A stretch of DNA of 64,000 bases from Corynespora cassiicola (lineage: Eukaryota > Ascomycota > Dothideomycetes > Pleosporales > Corynesporascaceae): contig JAEUWY010000015.1 in the NCBI GenBank assembly GCA_022059125.1, positions 1,909,913 to 1,973,912 of the forward strand. Reading direction: 5' to 3'. Of this stretch, positions 48,176 through 63,871 are shown piece by piece (within the stretch, counting starts at the first letter, position 1; every line of letters begins with the position of its first letter). The translations under genes were made by a program, and so were the position numbers. The notes beneath the pieces were generated by a model. It saw only the letters and a list, made by a program, of their open reading frames with translations. It had not been told where the DNA came from and did no database searches.

Positions 48176-48517
48176 TTAAGTGTCCACGCAGCTGATCGAA
48201 CCATACTTGTTCTGAGTAGCATCCCACCACGTAGCCTCGATCATCCCCTTGTTGCAGCTAACACCATTCGTGAAATGCCAGTGTAGACCGCCGTCGCGCG
48301 GTTCGCAGCCCGGCGAGCTTACGCCAACACAGTCTGCGAACTGCTTCAAGTTATCCCATAGCCCGCCGCAGATACCAGGAACGAGGTCAGCAGCAATGTT
48401 GTCGACCTGAATGCTGTATGTTGGAGCTTGTTGGCCAGCTGCACGGTTGCAGTAAGTAGCACCCGCTGAGGCAGAGAAGGTCGCAAGAGCAAAGAGGGTA
48501 ATAGAGGTGAAATGCAT
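48176..48517 (-). CDS. Small secreted six-cysteine protein, copy A
   Basis: A single exon of 113 residues. Residues 1-20 are a signal peptide (MHFTSITLFALATFSASAGA). The mature part is about 93 residues with six cysteines, in the contexts YCNRA, GICGGLWDNLKQFADC, PGCEPR, VSCNKGMIEATWWDAT and ISCVDT. It shares the core blocks CGGLWDNLKQFADC and IEATWWDAT/VEATWWDAT with copy B at 50152, and all six cysteines align. I know no function. Size, secretion, cysteine content and position next to a transposon-rich block fit the usual profile of candidate effectors or antimicrobial proteins; this is inference. The coding frame has no intron, unlike copy B. Confidence 0.85.
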   Translation of the reverse strand: MHFTSITLFALATFSASAGATYCNRAAGQQAPTYSIQVDNIAADLVPGICGGLWDNLKQFADCVGVSSPGCEPRDGGLHWHFTNGVSCNKGMIEATWWDATQNKYGSISCVDT

Positions 48518-50151: not shown

Positions 50152-50544
50152 ATGCACTTCCCTACTATTTCTGTAGCTCTGGCCGCTCTTACTGGCGGGG
50201 CTGTCGCGAATATCTGCAACTACGAAGTCCGTCAAGGGATGGCTTCTACCTACGCTATTGTGGTTCCAGGTGTTCCTGAGTAAGTTAAATTGCGTATAAT
50301 ATGAGTCGCATAGACACTGACATTGCAACTTTGCAGCATCCCAGGAGTATGTGGTGGCCTTTGGGACAATCTCAAACAATTCGCAGACTGTATTGGAGTT
50401 GGTTCCGCCCATTGTGGAGCGACGGATGCTGGGGAGTTGAACTGGAAGTTTACCAACGGGGGAAGCTGCAACCCTGGTATGGTTGAGGCGACATGGTGGG
50501 ATGCTACGAAGAATGAGTGGGGTGCTATTGACTGCGGTGCTTGA
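50152..50544 (+). CDS. Small secreted six-cysteine protein, copy B
   Basis: Two exons, 50152-50279 and 50337-50544; intron of 57 bp with GTAAGT donor and TGCAG acceptor, restoring an Asp codon. The product is 111 residues. Residues 1-20 form a signal peptide (MHFPTISVALAALTGGAVAN region). The mature protein has six cysteines (NICNY, GVCGG, ADCIGV, AHCGAT, GSCNPG, IDCGA) that align with copy A. Identity to copy A is strongest around GGLWDNLKQFADC and EATWWDAT. The pair is arranged head-to-head. It lies about 0.4 kb from the edge of the AT-rich block. Function is unknown. Confidence 0.88.
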
Positions 50545-51216
50545 TCTGACATGAAGACATTTTGCCTGTTTAGATAGATGATCATTGATCCTCGGAGTAG
50601 TGTATTTAACTTGGCGATGCGTTGTACAAGTCAATGCGTACACACAGTGTGTAGAAAACTGTCACCGTCAAGGGTACCTCTTAATAAATTTGATCATTTG
50701 TTTAACAGTCATGTATGGCGTTTAGATATAATCTACTGTTATATTCGATTATATTCTGATGTTTGAAATCTGTAAAGTTATTTCTCGTTCTCCTAGGTAC
50801 AGTTTAGGCCAATGATAGCAGAGCGTCAGAATGGCCGACCTGATCCGGCAGCATTGCTCTGCCGCCGGCCAGCTCAACTACGGTGCGCTGTTATAAGCAT
50901 ACCGGCAAAAACCCTACCAACTCTACTAACCTGTAGAAATTATCCACGTGTTCCTTCCTCTCTTTCTAAAAACAAATATTTTAATCTATTTTATTTTAAA
51001 ACTTTTATTTATTAACTGTTATCGAAAGAGCTACGGGAGTCCCTTTCTTCTAGCTGTGCTAGGCTAGAACTAAATAGTAAATATAAATTAATAAAAAAAA
51101 ACAGAAACAATACTACTTAGGTATCTAATAAAACAGTAACTAAAAATAATAAAAAATAATTAAGTTATTAATGAGTAAATAAGTAATTTCTATTTTATAA
51201 ATTTACTACTTTATTA
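50545..51216. other. Transition into the AT-rich block
   Basis: Ordinary composition to about 50940, then an abrupt fall in GC. The AT-rich part at 50945-51216 is not matched to the Tc1/mariner copies beside it and may be the remnant of another, older repeat. No gene. Confidence 0.5.
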
Positions 51217-52754
51217 CAGAGAGGTGACATTAAAAAAGAGTAATCGAAAAAACAGCACTTTTTAAACTTCTATAACTTTTTAACTAAACTAGTTATTTTT
51301 TTTTAAAAAAAAAAAATTATGTAGAGATTTTTCTAGTTTTTTATTAGAAAAAAAATAAATAATTACTTATATAATAATAATAGACTTAAAAGTTAGAAAA
51401 AAAGTAGACTAAAAAAAAGAGTAAAATTAAAATCTAATTTATATTTTATTAATAAAAATTTTTAAACCTTTTATTTTACGCTAACTATATTTAGCTAAGT
51501 CTGTATTACGTAAGCAAAAAACTAAAGTTAAATATTTAATTTAATATTAAAAAAATAAAATTTTAAAAATAAAGTTTTGCTTATATAAGCACTAATTATA
51601 TAATAATAAACTAGTTAAATTAGTATAAAGATAAATATTTTAGAAATTTAAACTTAAATTTCTATTTTCTCTAAACACAGATAAGATAGAACTTTAATTC
51701 TCAATATATAAAAAAAAAGTTAATTTTTTATATAAAGCTAATACATCTATCATAACTATTTCTAATATATTAAATAAAAGTAAAAAAAGTATTTATAATA
51801 CTATACAACGTATTAAAAGAAAAAAAATTATTTAATAGCATAATAAGAGATAGAAATTAAAATAAAATAAAGCTATTAAAAAAAGATAAAAAAATTATAA
51901 ATAGAGATTTAATTAAAAGCCCTAAAAAATAAAAATAAAAAAATATTATTAGAAAATAATATAAAAATATTTAAAAAAAGCTTATAAAAATATTTAAAAA
52001 AAGAAAATTATAGTACAAATATTAGTACTAAAAAGCTGTATTTAAATAAAAAAAAAACTAAAATAAAATTAAAATACGCAAAAAAACAATTAAAAAATAT
52101 AGAAAATATAATTTAAATAAAGTTTTGTTTTCTAATAAATTAGTAATAGAAAAAGGCCTAAGCTCTAGACAAAAATATATAAAAAAAAAGAAATAAAAGA
52201 GTAGAAGTTAAATTAGCTTTTATAAAATTAAATTATAAGTAAAAAAAAAATTAAAAAATTAAAATTAATTAAAAATTAATTATAATTTTTTAATTTAATT
52301 ACTTTTTTAAAAAAATTAATACTAATTAAATTATAGCTTAAGATATTATTATATTAGTATAAAAAGCTATTTAGATTAGAAAAAGATTAGAATTAGTATT
52401 TATTAAAACACTTTATTTTAAAAATAATTTTAATAATACGGATTATATATAAAAAGTATTAAAATTTATTATTAAAAAACAAATAAAACCCGGTTAGTTT
52501 ATATATCTTTTTTTTATTTTTTTATTAAATTTATTATTTAATTAAATTTATTTAATTAAATATTAAATTATAAAATTAATATAAATACTAATTACTTTAT
52601 AGACTGGAAATTTTAATAAAATAATTTAAAAATTTATACAGCTAAATATTAAGACTGTGCTACAGGCTATAAGCAAGACTAAAAAATAAGTAGCTGTTTA
52701 GATTAATTTTTAAAAATAAATACTAGTAAAGTTACGTAAGTAAAATAATATATA

Positions 52755-54884
52755 CAGAGGGGTGACATTAAAATAGTTTAATCGAAAAAAGAGCAGTTTT
52801 TAAACTGCTATAACTTTTTAACTAAACTAGCTATAAAAATAAAAAAATATTATTTAAATAGATATTTATTGAAATTTTAAGTTAAATAAAAAAAATATAG
52901 AGTTTATACTATAGTTTTAGGGTTATAAATAAGCTTAAAGTAGAGGTAAAAAAAAGTATAAATTTTAAAGCTAATTTATTTTTTATTTAAAAAATTATTA
53001 AAGCTTTTTATTTTACGCTAACCTAATTAGATCTAGTATGTATTACGTAAGCAAAAAACTGGAGCTATAATTCTATATTTAGATTATAAAAAATTAAAAT
53101 TTAAAAAATAAAGTTTTGATTATATAAGCATTATTATATAATAATAAGCTAGTTAAACTAGTATATAAATAAATATTTCAGAAAAAAAATTCTGAATCTC
53201 TATTTCCTCTAAACAAAGACAAGATGGAACCTCACTTTTCAGACTATGAAGAAAAAGTTAATCTTTTATTAAAAGCCAATACACCTATTATAACTATTTC
53301 TAATATATTAAATAAAAATAAAAGTAGTATTTATGCTACTATACAACGAATAAATAAAAAAAAAAATTATTTAATAGCTTAAATAAACAACAAAATAAAG
53401 ATAAAATTAAGCTATTAGAAAGAGATAAAAGAATTATTAATAGGGATTTAATTAAAAGCCCTAAAAAAACAAATAAAAGAATATTATTAGAAAATAATAT
53501 AAAAATATCTAAAAGAAGCTTACAAAGATATTTAAAAGAAGAAAATTATAGTATAAATATTAGTACTAAAAAGCCGTATTTAAATAAAAAAAGAGCTGAA
53601 AAAAGATTAGAATATACAAAAAAAAATATAAAAAATATAGAAAATATAAATTTAAATAAAATTATATTTTCTGATGAGTCAGCAATAGAAAGAGGCCTAG
53701 GTTCTAGGCAGGAATATATAAGAAAAAAGAGAAATAAAAGAGTAGGAGCTGAATTAGCTTTTATAAAACCAAATTGTAAGTAAAAAAAAAAATTAAAAAA
53801 ACTAAAATTAACTAAACATTAATTATAATTTTTTAATTTAATTACTTTTTTAAAAAAATTAGTACTAATTAAATTATAGCTCGAGATATTGTTATATCAG
53901 TATAGGGAGCTATTTGGATAGGAGGAAGATCAGAATTAGTGTTTATTAAAACACCTAATTCTAAAAATAACTTTAATAATACAGATTATATACAAAAAGT
54001 ATTAAAACCTATTATTAAAAAACAAATAAAACCCGGTTAGTTTATATACCTTTTTTTTACTCTTTAAATTAAATTTAATATTTAATTAAATATATTTAAT
54101 TAAATATTAAATAATAAAATTATTATAAATACTAATTACTTTATAGACTGGAAATTTCAACAAGATAATTCAAAAATTCATACAGCTAAACCAGTTTTAA
54201 ACTGGTTTAAAAAAAATAAAATTGAATTATTTGAACATCCAGCTTATAGCCCAGATTTAGCACCTATCGAAAACGTCTGGGCTATACTAAAAAATAATTT
54301 AAAAAAATTAAATCCTAATTTATTAGGCCAAAAAAATAATAAAAAAGATAATACTTTATTTATAAACGCTATAAATAAAGAATGGAATTTAATTCCACAA
54401 AAAATAATAGATAATTGTATATTATCTTTACCTAGGCGTTGGGAAGCAGTTATAAAAGCTAACGGATATTATACAAAATATTAATAATTTAATTAATTAT
54501 TAATTTATTTATATAGTTTGATTTTTTTAAATTTTTTTTTCTACTATTATTATTATTTTTTTTTAAAAGAGAAAGTTATATTAAAAATTTATATATATAT
54601 ATGTGTAGTTTATAAGTTTAGAATAATTAAAAAAAAATTAAATTATACGCTAGATGAAAAATAAATCAGCACTTAATTTTGTATTTTTTTTTACCTCTAC
54701 TTTAAGCTTATTTATAACCTTAAAACTATAATATAAACTCTAATTCTTTTTTTTTAACCTAAGGTTTTAATAAATGTCTATTTAAATAATTTTTTTTTAT
54801 TTTTATAGCTAGTTTAGTTAAAAAGTTATAGCAGTTTAAAAACTGCTCTTTTTTCGATTAAACTATTTTAATGTCACCCCACTG
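52755..54884 (+). mobile_element. Tc1/mariner element 2, nested, about 2.13 kb
   Basis: Left end CAGAGGGGTGACATTAAAAT at 52755 and right end ATTTTAATGTCACCCCACTG ending 54884, flanked by TA on both sides, the target of this superfamily. The terminal inverted repeats are long, roughly 230 bp, both carrying the block around GAGCAGTTTTTAAACTGCTA and the inner TTATAAATAAGCTTAAAGTA region. It contains a transposase relic at 53224-54484. It is less mutated than element 1, consistent with later insertion, and it sits inside the insertion that splits element 1. Confidence 0.85.
53224..54484 (+). pseudogene. DD34E transposase relic of element 2
   Basis: Begins MEPHFSDYEEKVNLLL with a helix-turn-helix region (ITISNILNKNKSSIYATIQR). 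After one frameshift near 53370 in a poly-A run the frame continues through KRSLQRYLKEENYSINISTK to the first catalytic Asp (IIFSDESAIERGLG). The second Asp lies in FQQDNSKIHTAK and the Glu in PDLAPIENVW, with 34 residues between them, the Tc1 DD34E spacing. It ends SLPRRWEAVIKANGYYTKY. Two intron-like segments, about 53778-53880 and 54037-54146, have GTAAGT or GTTAGT donors and TATAG acceptors and interrupt the frame exactly where homology does, so the ancestral gene probably had introns. Stops and the frameshift make it inactive. Confidence 0.8.
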
Positions 54885-55920
54885 TAATATACTATACAGA
54901 TTTTTATATTAGTAATAAAGTATAATAAATTAATAGTTAATTCTAAATAATAAATTTACTAATAAAGTAAATATAATCTATAAAGTATAATTATATAAAC
55001 TATATTTATATGTCTTAGTGCTTATTACTAAGTACTTTATATACTTATTATTAAGCGTGTTTATTTCTAAGCGTTTACTACTAAATATTTTATATATTTT
55101 TATTTACTACTAAGCTGTTATATAATATGTTATATATTATTTCTAAAACTCTGTATCTCTGCTTTTTAGTTAGTTTAGCTTTTACTATTCGGCGCTTAAC
55201 TAAGTACTTATAATACTAAACTAGTTTTAAAATAGTTTAAAAGAAATAAAATTAAATTATTTAAACATCTAGCTTATAGCCCAGACTTAACACCTATAGA
55301 AAATATCTGAGCTATGTTAAAAAATAAATTAAAAAAATTAAATTCTAATTTATTAGGCAAAAAAAATAATAAAAAAAAATACTTTATTTATAAACGCTAT
55401 AAATAAAGAATAGAATTTAATTCTATAAAAAATAATAGATAATTGTATATTATTTTTATTTAGACGTTAGAAGGCAGTTATTAAAGCTAACATAAATTAT
55501 TAAAAATACTAATAATTTAATTAATTATTAATTTATTTATATAGTTTATTTTTTTTAAAATCTTTTTTTCTATTATTATTATTATTTTTTTTTAAATGAA
55601 AAAGCTATATAAAATTTTTTTGTATATAATTATATAGTATATAAGTTTATAATAATTGAATAAAAAATAAAAATTATACGCTAGATAAGAAATAAATCAG
55701 CTTTTAATTTTACTCTTTTTTTTAGTCTACTTTTTTTCTAACTTTTAAGTCTATTATTATTATATAAGTGATTATTTTTTTTTGTTATAATAAAAAACTA
55801 GAAAAATCTCTATATAACTTATTTTTTTTTTTTTAAAAATAGCTAGTTTAGTTAAAAGGTTATAGAAGTTTAAAAAGTGCTATTTTTTCGATTAATCTTT
55901 TTTAATATCACCTCTCTGTA

Positions 55921-56326
55921 CTAATTTAACTAGTTTATTATTATATAATAAATGCTTATATAAGCAAAACTTTATTTTTTAAACTTTGTTTTTTTAATAT
56001 TAAATTAAATTTCTAGCTCTAGTTTTTTACTCACGTAATATATACTAAATCTAATTAGATTAGCGTAAAATAAAAAGTTAAAATAATTTTTTTAATAAAA
56101 AATAAATCTGCTTTAAAATTTACACTTTTTTTTACTTCTACTTTAAGCTTATTTATAACCTTATAACTATAATATAAACTCGAATATTTTTTTTGTAAAC
56201 TTAAAGCTTTAATAAATTTCTATTAAATTAATTTTTTTTTATTTTTATAGCTAGTCTAGTTAGAAAGTTATAGCAGTTTAAAAACTGCTCTTTTTTCGAT
56301 TAAACTATTTTAATGTCACCCCTCTG
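55921..56326 (-). mobile_element. Tc1/mariner element 3, 5' fragment
   Basis: The right edge reads AATGTCACCCCTCTG ending 56326 followed by TA, i.e. the left terminus of the same element in inverted orientation. Moving left it matches the first roughly 400 bp of element 2, through the AGCTTAAAGTAGAGG region and the leader before the transposase ATG, then stops at 55921 where it abuts element 1. The rest of this copy is missing. Its outer end lies about 20 bp from the stop codon of the esterase gene. Confidence 0.75.
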
Positions 56327-56347
56327 TACATACTTCAGAGCAACATG

Positions 56348-58502
56348 CTAGACACCTGATTCCATCCTTACGGTAGGACTATTAATAAATTCGCACCTCT
56401 TGAAAAGCTTTTCCCAGTACAAAGCACTCTCTGCTTGACCTAATGAAGAGTTTGGAGGGGGTTGAGTGATAGTTACAAGTCTCTGTCCGTAGGGCCCCCC
56501 GGTAAGTTTGATAGTTGCATAAGGTGGATACTCATCTTTCAACTCTTCCCCCATCGCCCCTGCAAAAGCGGGATTCCACGCGTCTTGACTGTAACCGCCT
56601 TGAGCAGGCCCACCAGAAACGATGAACTCAATGATACTACGACTGAACATCATCGAAAGCGCCAGTTGCCGGGCCGAGTTATCGGCGCCACCGCTCAATC
56701 GTTGATTATTGAGCGCATAGGGAACATCGCTGAGGTGCGACACATGCCACATTGGCACGCCAATATTTTCATAAACCGGTGTGAATCGGGTGGAGTTGTG
56801 CTCGTACAGCCAGATATCTGATAAGCTGCCATCCCCCTGTCTCGCATACTGCCACGCAAAGTCGATTACCGGGCACGTAAACCACAGATCTCGATTGATC
56901 TGAGCTGCGCGGTAGTATTGAGGAGAGATGGGGCCATCGTAATCCGGTCGAACCATGAACTCAAAGTCAGCTAGAGGATAGAGTTCGAGAAGCTTCGCCT
57001 TTGTAGAAGGTGAGTGATTGAAGAGCCAAGGACCGAAAGTGGCGAGTACTTCTTCATCCGTGGAGGTAGCGGGCGAAGCATACCATGCACCGTCGTTGGT
57101 GACCCACGAGGTGATGATGGGTATGCCTTTGACGAATTTTCCCGTCCGCATCAATTCTGTAGGTCGGTCGGGCAAGTAGTCGTCGTCGTACGTTGGATAG
57201 AAGAAGCCTTCTCCAAATGGTGGGCGAGAGGCACGGGACATCGACACGGAGAGGTTTGTAAGAGGCTCGAATGCGGCTTTTCGCAAACAGGCGAGAGTTT
57301 CTGCAGATTGGCTGTCTCCGTCTTGTGCACACCCAATTCCCTCTGCAATCGTTGCTGTGTTGTTTGCCACTAAGTCCGATTTAGTATTGAAGTTTAAACC
57401 GGAGGCGCCAGACATCATTCTAGGAGTCACCTTAGTCGGATTTTGCCTCAATAACAAACATTTTCTCTTACATTGCTTGTTGAAAAGGTACATCGCGCTC
57501 CCCGCCGAATGAAGTGAGATGGAGGTTGATATCGCTTCCGCCTACGCTTTGGCCCATCGCAGTGACTGGGAGAATATGGTAAGCAGCACATCTCAAGATA
57601 TGACTATCTGAAGTACACACACCTTTTTGCGGATTGCCTCCGAAAGTTGCGATGTTGTCGCGCACCCCTAATGGCAAATCAGTACAGAGAACAAGCATAC
57701 AAGAAGTGATGATCCGTACACTCGAGGGCAGCGCGTTGATCGCGTAGACCAGCATTGGTATGGCCAGCCTCAAGTAAGGCTTTGTTGGTTGCGAAGCCAA
57801 AAACTGTCCCAGTTTGTGAGAGCGATTACTTGCAAGGAGGTAAGCTTCTACTCACAGCCCAGTCGATAGTTGATGCTAACAAAGATCAAAGGATTTCCGT
57901 CAGCTTTGGCTTGCCTTACGAGACCGTCGGGATCATATAGTATATCCGAGCCGGAGCCCAAGGCATGTCCACCTGTATGATGAATCTGTCAGCAGTCTTG
58001 CCCGGCGTAAGAGCATAGGATACCGTAGTTCACCTCCATGTATCCACACAACCACCGGGAGCTTGTCATAAGGCTTGGTGGCATACGGACGTGCAATTCG
58101 TAGGCTCAGACAGTTTTCGCTGATGTTAGTGATTTGGCTGGTAAATGGGAAAATATCGCCTGTTGCTTGTGGGCACCATGCTCCTGGCTGTGTGGCATCA
58201 ATCACAGATCCTCTTGGATGAATCAGCTGAACCGGCGGCGCAAAACGATTTTCCCCAGAGGTGTCTTGGGCATAGAAGATGTTGTGGAAATGTTCAATGT
58301 CAGCAGAGTAGCTACCAATGTATTGGATATCGTGGGCTACATCAGTGACAAGCGGACTTTGTGCGAGGTTGAATAGCACGGGCATGCCATAGGCTACGCA
58401 TTTCTCAAGGAGAAACTGGCAAGGGAATTCCAAAAAGATGGCTAGTAGGGCGACAAACAGAGCGCCCATTGCCAATAGTAGTCCGGTGATGTTGGGAGCC
58501 AT
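56348..58502 (-). CDS. Type-B carboxylesterase/lipase, membrane-anchored
   Basis: Six exons: 58502-58034, 57972-57856, 57803-57720, 57667-57623, 57565-57472 and 57419-56348, all in phase with GT-AG introns. The product is 626 residues of the alpha/beta-hydrolase COesterase family. An N-terminal hydrophobic segment (about residues 6-27) acts as signal or anchor. The oxyanion loop HGGGHALG is rebuilt over intron 1; SENCLSL corresponds to the EDCL motif; the nucleophile elbow is GQSVG instead of the commoner GESAG; the acid residue is probably Asp in VTNDGAWY; the His lies in VSHLSDVPYALNN. All triad positions are filled, so it could be active on an ester of unknown nature. It ends about 20 bp from a transposon fragment yet has no lesion. 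It heads the telomere-proximal gene group; a tailoring role there is inference. Confidence 0.9.
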
Positions 58503-61833: not shown

Positions 61834-62139
61834 CTAAAACCCATCAGAGACGTCGACACTCTCTTCGCTGCGCTTGAATCCATCTGAGACGTCCACATTC
61901 TCCTCGCTGCGCTTGAACCCATCGGAGACATCTACATTCTCCTTGCTGCGCTTAAAACCGTCAGATACGTCAACTCCAATCTCCGCGTTGTCTCGGAGTC
62001 TAAGAGTGGTCGTTGCGGCTTTTATAGTCAGCGGATTTTCTTGAAGATGCGAAATGATAGATGACATACGAGAGATAGGGGCAGCAATAGTGAAAGCAAA
62101 AAAGCCGAAGAGGGCGGCAGAAACTGTTATGACTCTCAT
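61834..62139 (-). CDS. RiPP precursor with four identical core repeats
   Basis: A single exon of 101 residues. Residues 1-20 form a signal peptide (MRVITVSAALFGFFAFTIAA). A leader follows to about residue 55. The C-terminal half consists of four copies of VDVSDGF at residues 56-62, 69-75, 82-88 and 95-101, with an exact 13-residue period. The first three are followed by Lys-Arg (63-64, 76-77, 89-90) and then by spacers SKEN, SEEN and SEES; the last copy ends at the stop. Lys-Arg is the Kex2 cleavage signal. The four copies use different synonymous codons (for Val GTT, GTA, GTG, GTC; for Phe TTT and TTC), so the peptide rather than the DNA has been conserved. This is the architecture of dikaritin precursors and other Kex2-processed repeat proteins. 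The core has Phe but no Tyr. The neighbouring UstYa genes point to an oxidised or cyclised product. Confidence 0.88.
   Translation of the reverse strand: MRVITVSAALFGFFAFTIAAPISRMSSIISHLQENPLTIKAATTTLRLRDNAEIGVDVSDGFKRSKENVDVSDGFKRSEENVDVSDGFKRSEESVDVSDGF
61837..61974 (-). repeat. Four 21 bp core units, 39 bp period
   Basis: Core units at 61954-61974, 61915-61935, 61876-61896 and 61837-61857, encoding the same heptapeptide on the minus strand. The units differ at many third codon positions but at no amino acid. The 18 bp between units encode Lys-Arg plus a four-residue Ser/Glu spacer, where small amino-acid changes are tolerated. Confidence 0.9.
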
Positions 62140-63498: not shown

Positions 63499-63871
63499 TT
63501 AACCTTCATCTACCTTGACATGACCATGATCTATTCCTTGCGCCAAGAATCCACTGGCATTGAACACTCCGCGTTGTTCCACGAAACTTTTCAGTGCCTC
63601 GTAGTCTCGACACTTTCGTTGGAATCCGCTACCTAGGAATTCATTATTTTCGTCCACTGCGGGTTCTACAGTAGTGTCTGCCGAGCAAGTCAAGCCTTGC
63701 TGAAGATAGTCAAAGCAATGCGCAATGTGGGCGCCACGCTCTTTCCCAAAGTCAAATTCTTGCAACTCTTCCGAAGAAAAGTAATATGCCCGCCTTAAAG
63801 TATAAAGACAATGTAGTTGGTGGAAAACTGTGGGTATGGAGGTCGTAGGAGCAAGCTGGGTGTCTTTGAAA
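63499..63871 (-). pseudogene. UstYa-family gene cut by the telomere
   Basis: Reading away from the telomere, an open frame begins directly at the repeat junction with NFKDTQLAPTTSIPTVFHQL and contains both family motifs, HQLHC and HIAHC, followed by CFDYLQQGLTC, ADTTVEP, FQRKCRDYEALKSFVEQRG and the C-terminus HGHVKVDEG at a TAA. This is the C-terminal half of a UstYa protein. The N-terminal part, including the membrane helix and start codon, is absent: the frame runs into CCCTAA repeats. No ATG precedes the first HxxHC, so it is probably not translated as a normal protein. It is a second, different member from the intact gene at 60756; the family often works as pairs (UstYa/UstYb), so the loss may have disabled the pathway. 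Confidence 0.88.

Follow-up and report, generated by a model that had tools for sequence, protein, structure and literature searches.

Close to the end of contig C15 of Corynespora cassiicola lies a small gene whose product closes with four identical heptapeptides, VDVSDGF, and the question that it raises is what kind of peptide is made from such a protein. The initial annotation of the window (the whole 64 kb stretch of DNA analysed here) proposed an unfamiliar precursor on the plan of the dikaritins and other Kex2-processed repeat proteins. Our analysis makes it quite likely that the protein is a precursor from which a dikaritin-type RiPP, one with no Tyr in its core, is made.

The coordinates first given for the gene are correct and its strand, which had been left unstated, is the minus strand, where there is one open frame; the plus-strand translation contains stops (Table 1). 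The protein consists of a hydrophobic start of about 20 residues, a propeptide of about 35 residues and then the four cores (residues 56–62, 69–75, 82–88 and 95–101). Translation reproduces every element of the repeat as originally described: four exact copies of VDVSDGF in a 13-residue period, Lys-Arg after copies 1–3 and the spacers SKEN, SEEN and SEES. The N-terminus is signal-like as judged by hydropathy only, with Kyte–Doolittle means of 1.5–2.2 for 11-residue windows starting at residues 1–13. The absence of Tyr, claimed for the core, extends to the whole 101-residue protein, which also lacks Trp. A weak Pfam match to Lysostaphin_N (17.3 bits, under the curated cut-off of 60) was set aside.

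Table 1. Positions in the window of the candidate precursor gene, its parts and the neighbouring features
Feature	Position	Strand	Basis or remark
UstYa-family (DUF3328) gene, UstYa1, 275 aa	60756..61583	+	PF11807, E = 5e-19; intact frame
Candidate RiPP precursor gene (P0001)	61834..62139	−	Single exon, 101 aa; homologue P0002 at E = 1.1e-43
Signal-like peptide, about residues 1–20 (MRVITVSAALFGFFAFTIAA)	62080..62139	−	Kyte–Doolittle hydropathy
Core copy 1, VDVSDGF	61954..61974	−	Translation
Lys-Arg site 1	61948..61953	−	Translation
Core copy 2, VDVSDGF	61915..61935	−	Translation
Lys-Arg site 2	61909..61914	−	Translation
Core copy 3, VDVSDGF	61876..61896	−	Translation
Lys-Arg site 3	61870..61875	−	Translation
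Core copy 4, VDVSDGF, stop codon immediately after	61837..61857	−	Translation
Second UstYa gene, C-terminal part, 123 aa left	63502..63870	−	PF11807, E = 2.5e-21; profile positions 129–219 of 220
Telomere repeats TTAGGG, end of contig C15	63872..64000	+	Sequence

In each of the seven codons the third base varies among the core copies, and no other base does. This requires at least 11 changes, all of which are silent. Taking a silent fraction of 0.24–0.29 per random change, this pattern would arise with a probability of 1.4e-7 to 1.0e-6 if the peptide were not under selection, the value varying with the assumed transition bias. This bears out the earlier claim that differing codons and an unchanged peptide point to selection (11 of 11 changes silent, p of about 1e-7 to 1e-6). 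Two of the three changes in the spacers alter the residue (Lys to Glu and Asn to Ser), the third being a silent GAG to GAA. Across the six frames of the 64 kb window the precursor is the only ATG-started frame with such a repeat, defined for frames of at least 40 residues as a 6-mer that contains four or more different residues and is present at least three times. A degenerate pattern of core plus Lys-Arg occurs at three places in the 44.35 Mb genome, all of them within these copies (none with the reversed control), and no second match to the precursor is found in the genome at E ≤ 1. A chance repeat or artefact is ruled out because the changes between copies are all silent and relatives exist in other fungi.

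These relatives came from the database comparison that the initial annotation had called for. A search with the precursor alone returned P0002 as a strong match, with five cores and 68% identity, and P0003 as a weak one (E = 0.69). When a profile built from these two and the window precursor was scored against the 8000 candidates with the most words in common, 12 proteins reached E ≤ 10, namely the two already inside the profile and ten more, nine of which score E ≤ 3e-4; P0133 scores E = 0.53. A scan of viral contigs with the precursor gave no relative. Organism names are given for four of the 12, and these all belong to Pezizomycotina: Fulgogasparrea decipioides and Squamulea squamosa (lichens, Teloschistaceae; records from metagenome-assembled genomes), Daldinia sp. 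FL1419 (Xylariales) and Diaporthe sp. PMI_573 (placed in Diaporthales from its genus name). Hydrophobic starts are visible by eye in P0126, in P0133 and in P0002 from Met45, and the region of P0002 that matches residues 1–20 or so of the window precursor is similar.

The repeat units of the relatives mostly read (V/I)D(V/I)(A/S)DGF followed by Lys-Arg, with spacers of varying length and sequence. In the 13 proteins we counted 36 cores: VDVADGF (16), VDVSDGF (10), IDVADGF (3), VDIADGF (3) and one each of VDISDGF, VDVVDGF, VNIADGF and IDVADAF. This tally omits nine of the 45 units, which fell outside the pattern used for counting: four in P0128, the first unit in each of P0003, P0124 and P0125, and a single unit in each of P0133 and P0131. 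Tyr takes the position of Phe in four of the 45, one each in P0003, P0124, P0125 and P0133, and one unit of P0131 ends in DRF; the Tyr of P0002 sits in an N-terminal extension outside the repeats. Eleven of the 13 precursors, including that of the window, end exactly on their last core, the exceptions being P0128 and, on a contig of 1035 bases, P0132, and since so many stop right there the sequences suggest that the core has Phe as its C-terminal residue.

Between the window precursor and P0002 the core is identical at 27 of 28 positions and Lys-Arg at six of six, against 32 of 55 in the leader and four of 12 in the spacers (Fisher test, core versus leader p = 2e-4, core versus spacer p = 5e-5). 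By this comparison of sequences, core and cleavage sites are held while the rest of the protein drifts. Freely decaying repeats in orthologues, in combination with the absence of any transcript, had been named as an observation that would speak against the proposal. The closest relative shows no such decay, whereas in P0128, from Diaporthe, DGF and Lys-Arg are kept and the residues upstream are rearranged.

UstYa genes flank the precursor on both sides. The intact one, UstYa1, is convergent with the precursor and 250 bp separate the two reading frames. It carries HxxHC motifs at residues 146 and 173, and both motifs are present in 116 of the 120 homologues among the matches listed (125 were found). 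The homologue P0004 aligns with 100% of the query at 77% identity. An AlphaFold model of medium quality (mean pLDDT 70.3, pTM 0.55) has a long N-terminal helix at residues 34–63 (block pLDDT of 95 and 94 for residues 41–60), which probably anchors the protein in a membrane, and a domain that is largely helical, with the HxxHC motifs located in helices 143–162 and 171–183. Comparison of the model with the PDB gave 14 matches, none with E below 2.5, and a profile of alignment A3 (39 of the 120 listed homologues plus the query) had no match among solved chains at E ≤ 1; because neither search gave a solved relative, no fold is assigned. A match to SLFN_GTPase-like (14.2 bits, curated cut-off 27) was discarded. 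The genome holds 26 matches to PF11807, exons counted separately, and a gene for a Kex2-type convertase, with its single P_proprotein match in the same frame as Peptidase_S8 (E = 2.1e-43).

The second UstYa frame reads out of the telomere repeats and its 5′ part is missing at the junction. Nothing lies beyond these repeats, the window being the end of the contig. It appears that a biosynthetic gene was broken here when the chromosome end was cut and then healed. The closest paralogue found of the telomeric fragment (47% identity, residues 5–99) is one of two UstYa matches that occupy opposite strands at C4:1509300-1510292. The start of telomere repeats directly at a broken frame is what one would expect of a former dikaritin pathway that lost part of its second UstYa, and perhaps further genes, at a healed chromosome end and is now silent and productless. 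This reading overlaps with ours as to what the gene is, and the probabilities of the two need not add up to one. We regard it as unlikely: the precursor and UstYa1 still have open frames, all differences among the core copies are silent, UstYa1 retains its similarity to P0004 over its whole length, and the asperipin-2a pathway, as described in the part of PMC7329392 drawn on here, has just one DUF3328 protein. Because the second UstYa gene is truncated the pathway may nevertheless be incomplete in this strain, and as the chromosome end has removed part of that gene, continued production by the strain is uncertain.

Inland of UstYa1, Pfam identifies a fungal rhodopsin-domain protein and a carboxylesterase, with no tie to the pathway seen. 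The carboxylesterase gene (56348-58502, minus strand) is spread over several frames or exons, with PF00135 in two pieces, and abuts a very AT-rich stretch (about 51000-56330) in which repeats in both orientations and DDE-transposase-like remnants can be read by eye; from its sequence this stretch looks like mutated (RIP-like) transposon copies. Further inland are two mutually similar small secreted-type proteins with several Cys (about 48176-48517, minus strand, and 50152-50545, plus strand), which share the sequences GLWDNLKQFADC and EATWWDAT; as read by eye, the gene of the second appears to have a single intron. In the Pfam scan of seven unspliced frames between 56 and 64 kb, no methyltransferase or transporter was recognised.

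Precursor and UstYa probably occur together elsewhere too. Three of the 12 relatives pair with a UstYa homologue: P0002 with P0004 (both on contigs of 68325, same source or organism), P0128 with P0050 (both 1885936, Diaporthe) and P0133 with P0020 (both 141326, Daldinia, with consecutive locus numbers 333861 and 333860). Since source or organism and contig size agree, each pair is presumed to share one contig. P0132 and the UstYa homologue P0010, both on contigs of 1035, were left uncounted because their sources differ, and the other nine relatives have no such partner among the matches listed. In a UstYa tree of 117 rows (the query and those 116 of the 120 listed homologues with at least 190 residues), the four precursor-linked rows are spread over three positions within a single group of 102 rows. 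This placement corresponds to three changes, a number as low in 15 of 500 shuffles, and the bootstrap is unsettled. An old pairing of precursor and UstYa would fit this tree, as would repeated transfer.

Dikaritins are RiPPs that originate from Kex2-repeat precursors and are cyclised by UstYa homologues; those listed in the part of the December 2022 review used here (PMC10512285) are ustiloxin, asperipin-2a, phomopsin, epichloecyclin and victorin, the five reported by then, set against thousands of KEP genes of which 22% have UstYa neighbours. The locus shares with them a signal-like leader, tandem cores between Kex2 sites and an adjacent UstYa/DUF3328 gene, features known here from the genes alone. 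Among the characteristics of a dikaritin system, a repeat precursor of the Kex2 type (as judged from its sequence), a UstYa protein containing HxxHC and a Kex2 protease gene are present. The initial proposal of a dikaritin plan thus gains support from the adjoining UstYa1, the truncated second UstYa, the Kex2-type convertase and the three relatives paired with a UstYa homologue. The difference is the core without Tyr, a residue found in ustiloxin, phomopsin and asperipin-2a that stands outside the definition in the part of PMC10512285 considered. Ustiloxin and phomopsin have a cluster tyrosinase, which is no general dikaritin feature; none was matched in the 64 kb window and the sole match on the contig is at C15:899907. 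Among plant peptides, the precursors of burpitides can carry repeated cores. The burpitide enzymes, BURP-domain copper cyclases, also perform copper-dependent crosslinking of side chains and are set beside UstYs (DUF3328) in the section of PMC12186524 used, in contrast to which they are listed there as an unrelated enzyme family and occur in plants.

A survey of 1461 fungal strains (PMC7329392, in the parts used here) found a DUF3328 neighbour, most often directly adjacent, for 22% of 7878 Kex2-repeat proteins. The window precursor apparently qualifies by the repeat criterion of that survey, with its signal judged by hydropathy, and likewise has its DUF3328 gene adjacent. Tyr is present in 65.6% of the repeats of KEPs with such a neighbour, so a Tyr-free core is in the minority and not unheard of, about a third of these repeats being likewise without Tyr. 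The same figures leave room for a linear secreted peptide, in which Kex2 and exopeptidases would set SxENVDVSDGF or VDVSDGF free without modification, to serve as a signal, an effector or a surface peptide, and the neighbouring UstYa proteins would have another substrate. No DUF3328 gene neighbours the remaining 78% of Kex2-repeat proteins, among which there are known linear peptides, and the residues noted in PMC7329392 for the major DUF3328-linked types are Tyr, His-His and Trp, none of which the core has. Moreover, DUF3328 proteins occur in polyketide and nonribosomal-peptide clusters as well (PMC12048977, in part), that is outside RiPP clusters, and this weakens the step from a UstYa neighbour to a RiPP. 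An unmodified product is nevertheless quite improbable in view of an intact UstYa directly adjacent, a second one on the other side and the presumed pairing of precursor and UstYa homologue in three other cases.

A mating pheromone of the alpha-factor type would have the same Kex2-repeat layout, and 17 of 76 putative Basidiomycota pheromones have DUF3328 neighbours according to the part of PMC7329392 used. In the Ascomycota-type groups of that survey such a neighbour is found for none of 227 yeast alpha-factor KEPs and for three of 216 fungal pheromone KEPs, so that the UstYa neighbours count against a pheromone here. The protein has no Trp, and homology to a pheromone, which the initial annotation had named as grounds for abandoning its proposal, is not seen in Pfam, where no pheromone family matched. 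We consider this identity extremely improbable.

For the dikaritin-type reading, we infer a route in four steps. The signal peptide would direct the precursor into the secretory pathway, where the neighbouring and probably membrane-anchored UstYa1 would oxidise the repeated VDVSDGF core, through a side-chain crosslink or a desaturation at the C-terminal Phe or at Val, Ser or Asp side chains. Kex2 would then cleave after each Lys-Arg and a carboxypeptidase would strip these two residues, so that every copy is proposed to end in Phe as copy 4 does; the acidic N-terminal spacer may be trimmed or kept. Finally, the product would be exported.

The VDVSDGF peptide is most likely a new, Tyr-free addition to the known dikaritin-type precursors, and the texts searched gave no description of its core. 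VDVSDGF and near variants occur in no full text searched, supplementary tables and figures lying outside that search, and five-residue strings of the core were not found in full texts that also name Kex2 or UstYa or that contain at least two of the strings. One of the KEP types of PMC7329392 may already contain the family. The conserved KEP motifs of PMC6339444 are similar in that a core motif is kept across genera of Pezizomycotina, and different in that none printed in the section examined resembles VDV(A/S)DGF.

The genome contains a second Kex2-repeat precursor of 125 residues (C1:1334435-1334812, minus strand; L006:271-648), which turned up in a scan that covered the flanks of the UstYa matches, about 1.5 kb to either side. 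It follows the same plan with four Tyr-rich AYPDEKLYAEEY units, three followed by Lys-Arg and the last by the stop, and is close to three UstYa matches at C1:1331411, 1332204 and 1335665; its presence counts in favour of the dikaritin-type reading.

More tentatively, and with the balance of probability somewhat against it, the precursors may mark a dikaritin lineage with a conserved Tyr-free (V/I)D(V/I)(A/S)DGF core that extends from lichen fungi (Lecanoromycetes) to Xylariales and is served by a dedicated group of UstYa proteins oxidising unactivated Phe (or Val, Asp or Ser). The Lecanoromycetes end of this range is given by the labels of two metagenome-assembled genomes, whose precursors are among the relatives that have no UstYa partner in the matches listed. 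If true, a peptide that is conserved between classes while its spacers drift would suit an endogenous signal better than a fast-evolving toxin. The pairing of a strictly conserved Tyr-free core with an intact UstYa allows the action of UstYa on a core with Phe but no Tyr to be tested, and the precursor family makes it testable whether some such peptides are conserved signals rather than toxins.
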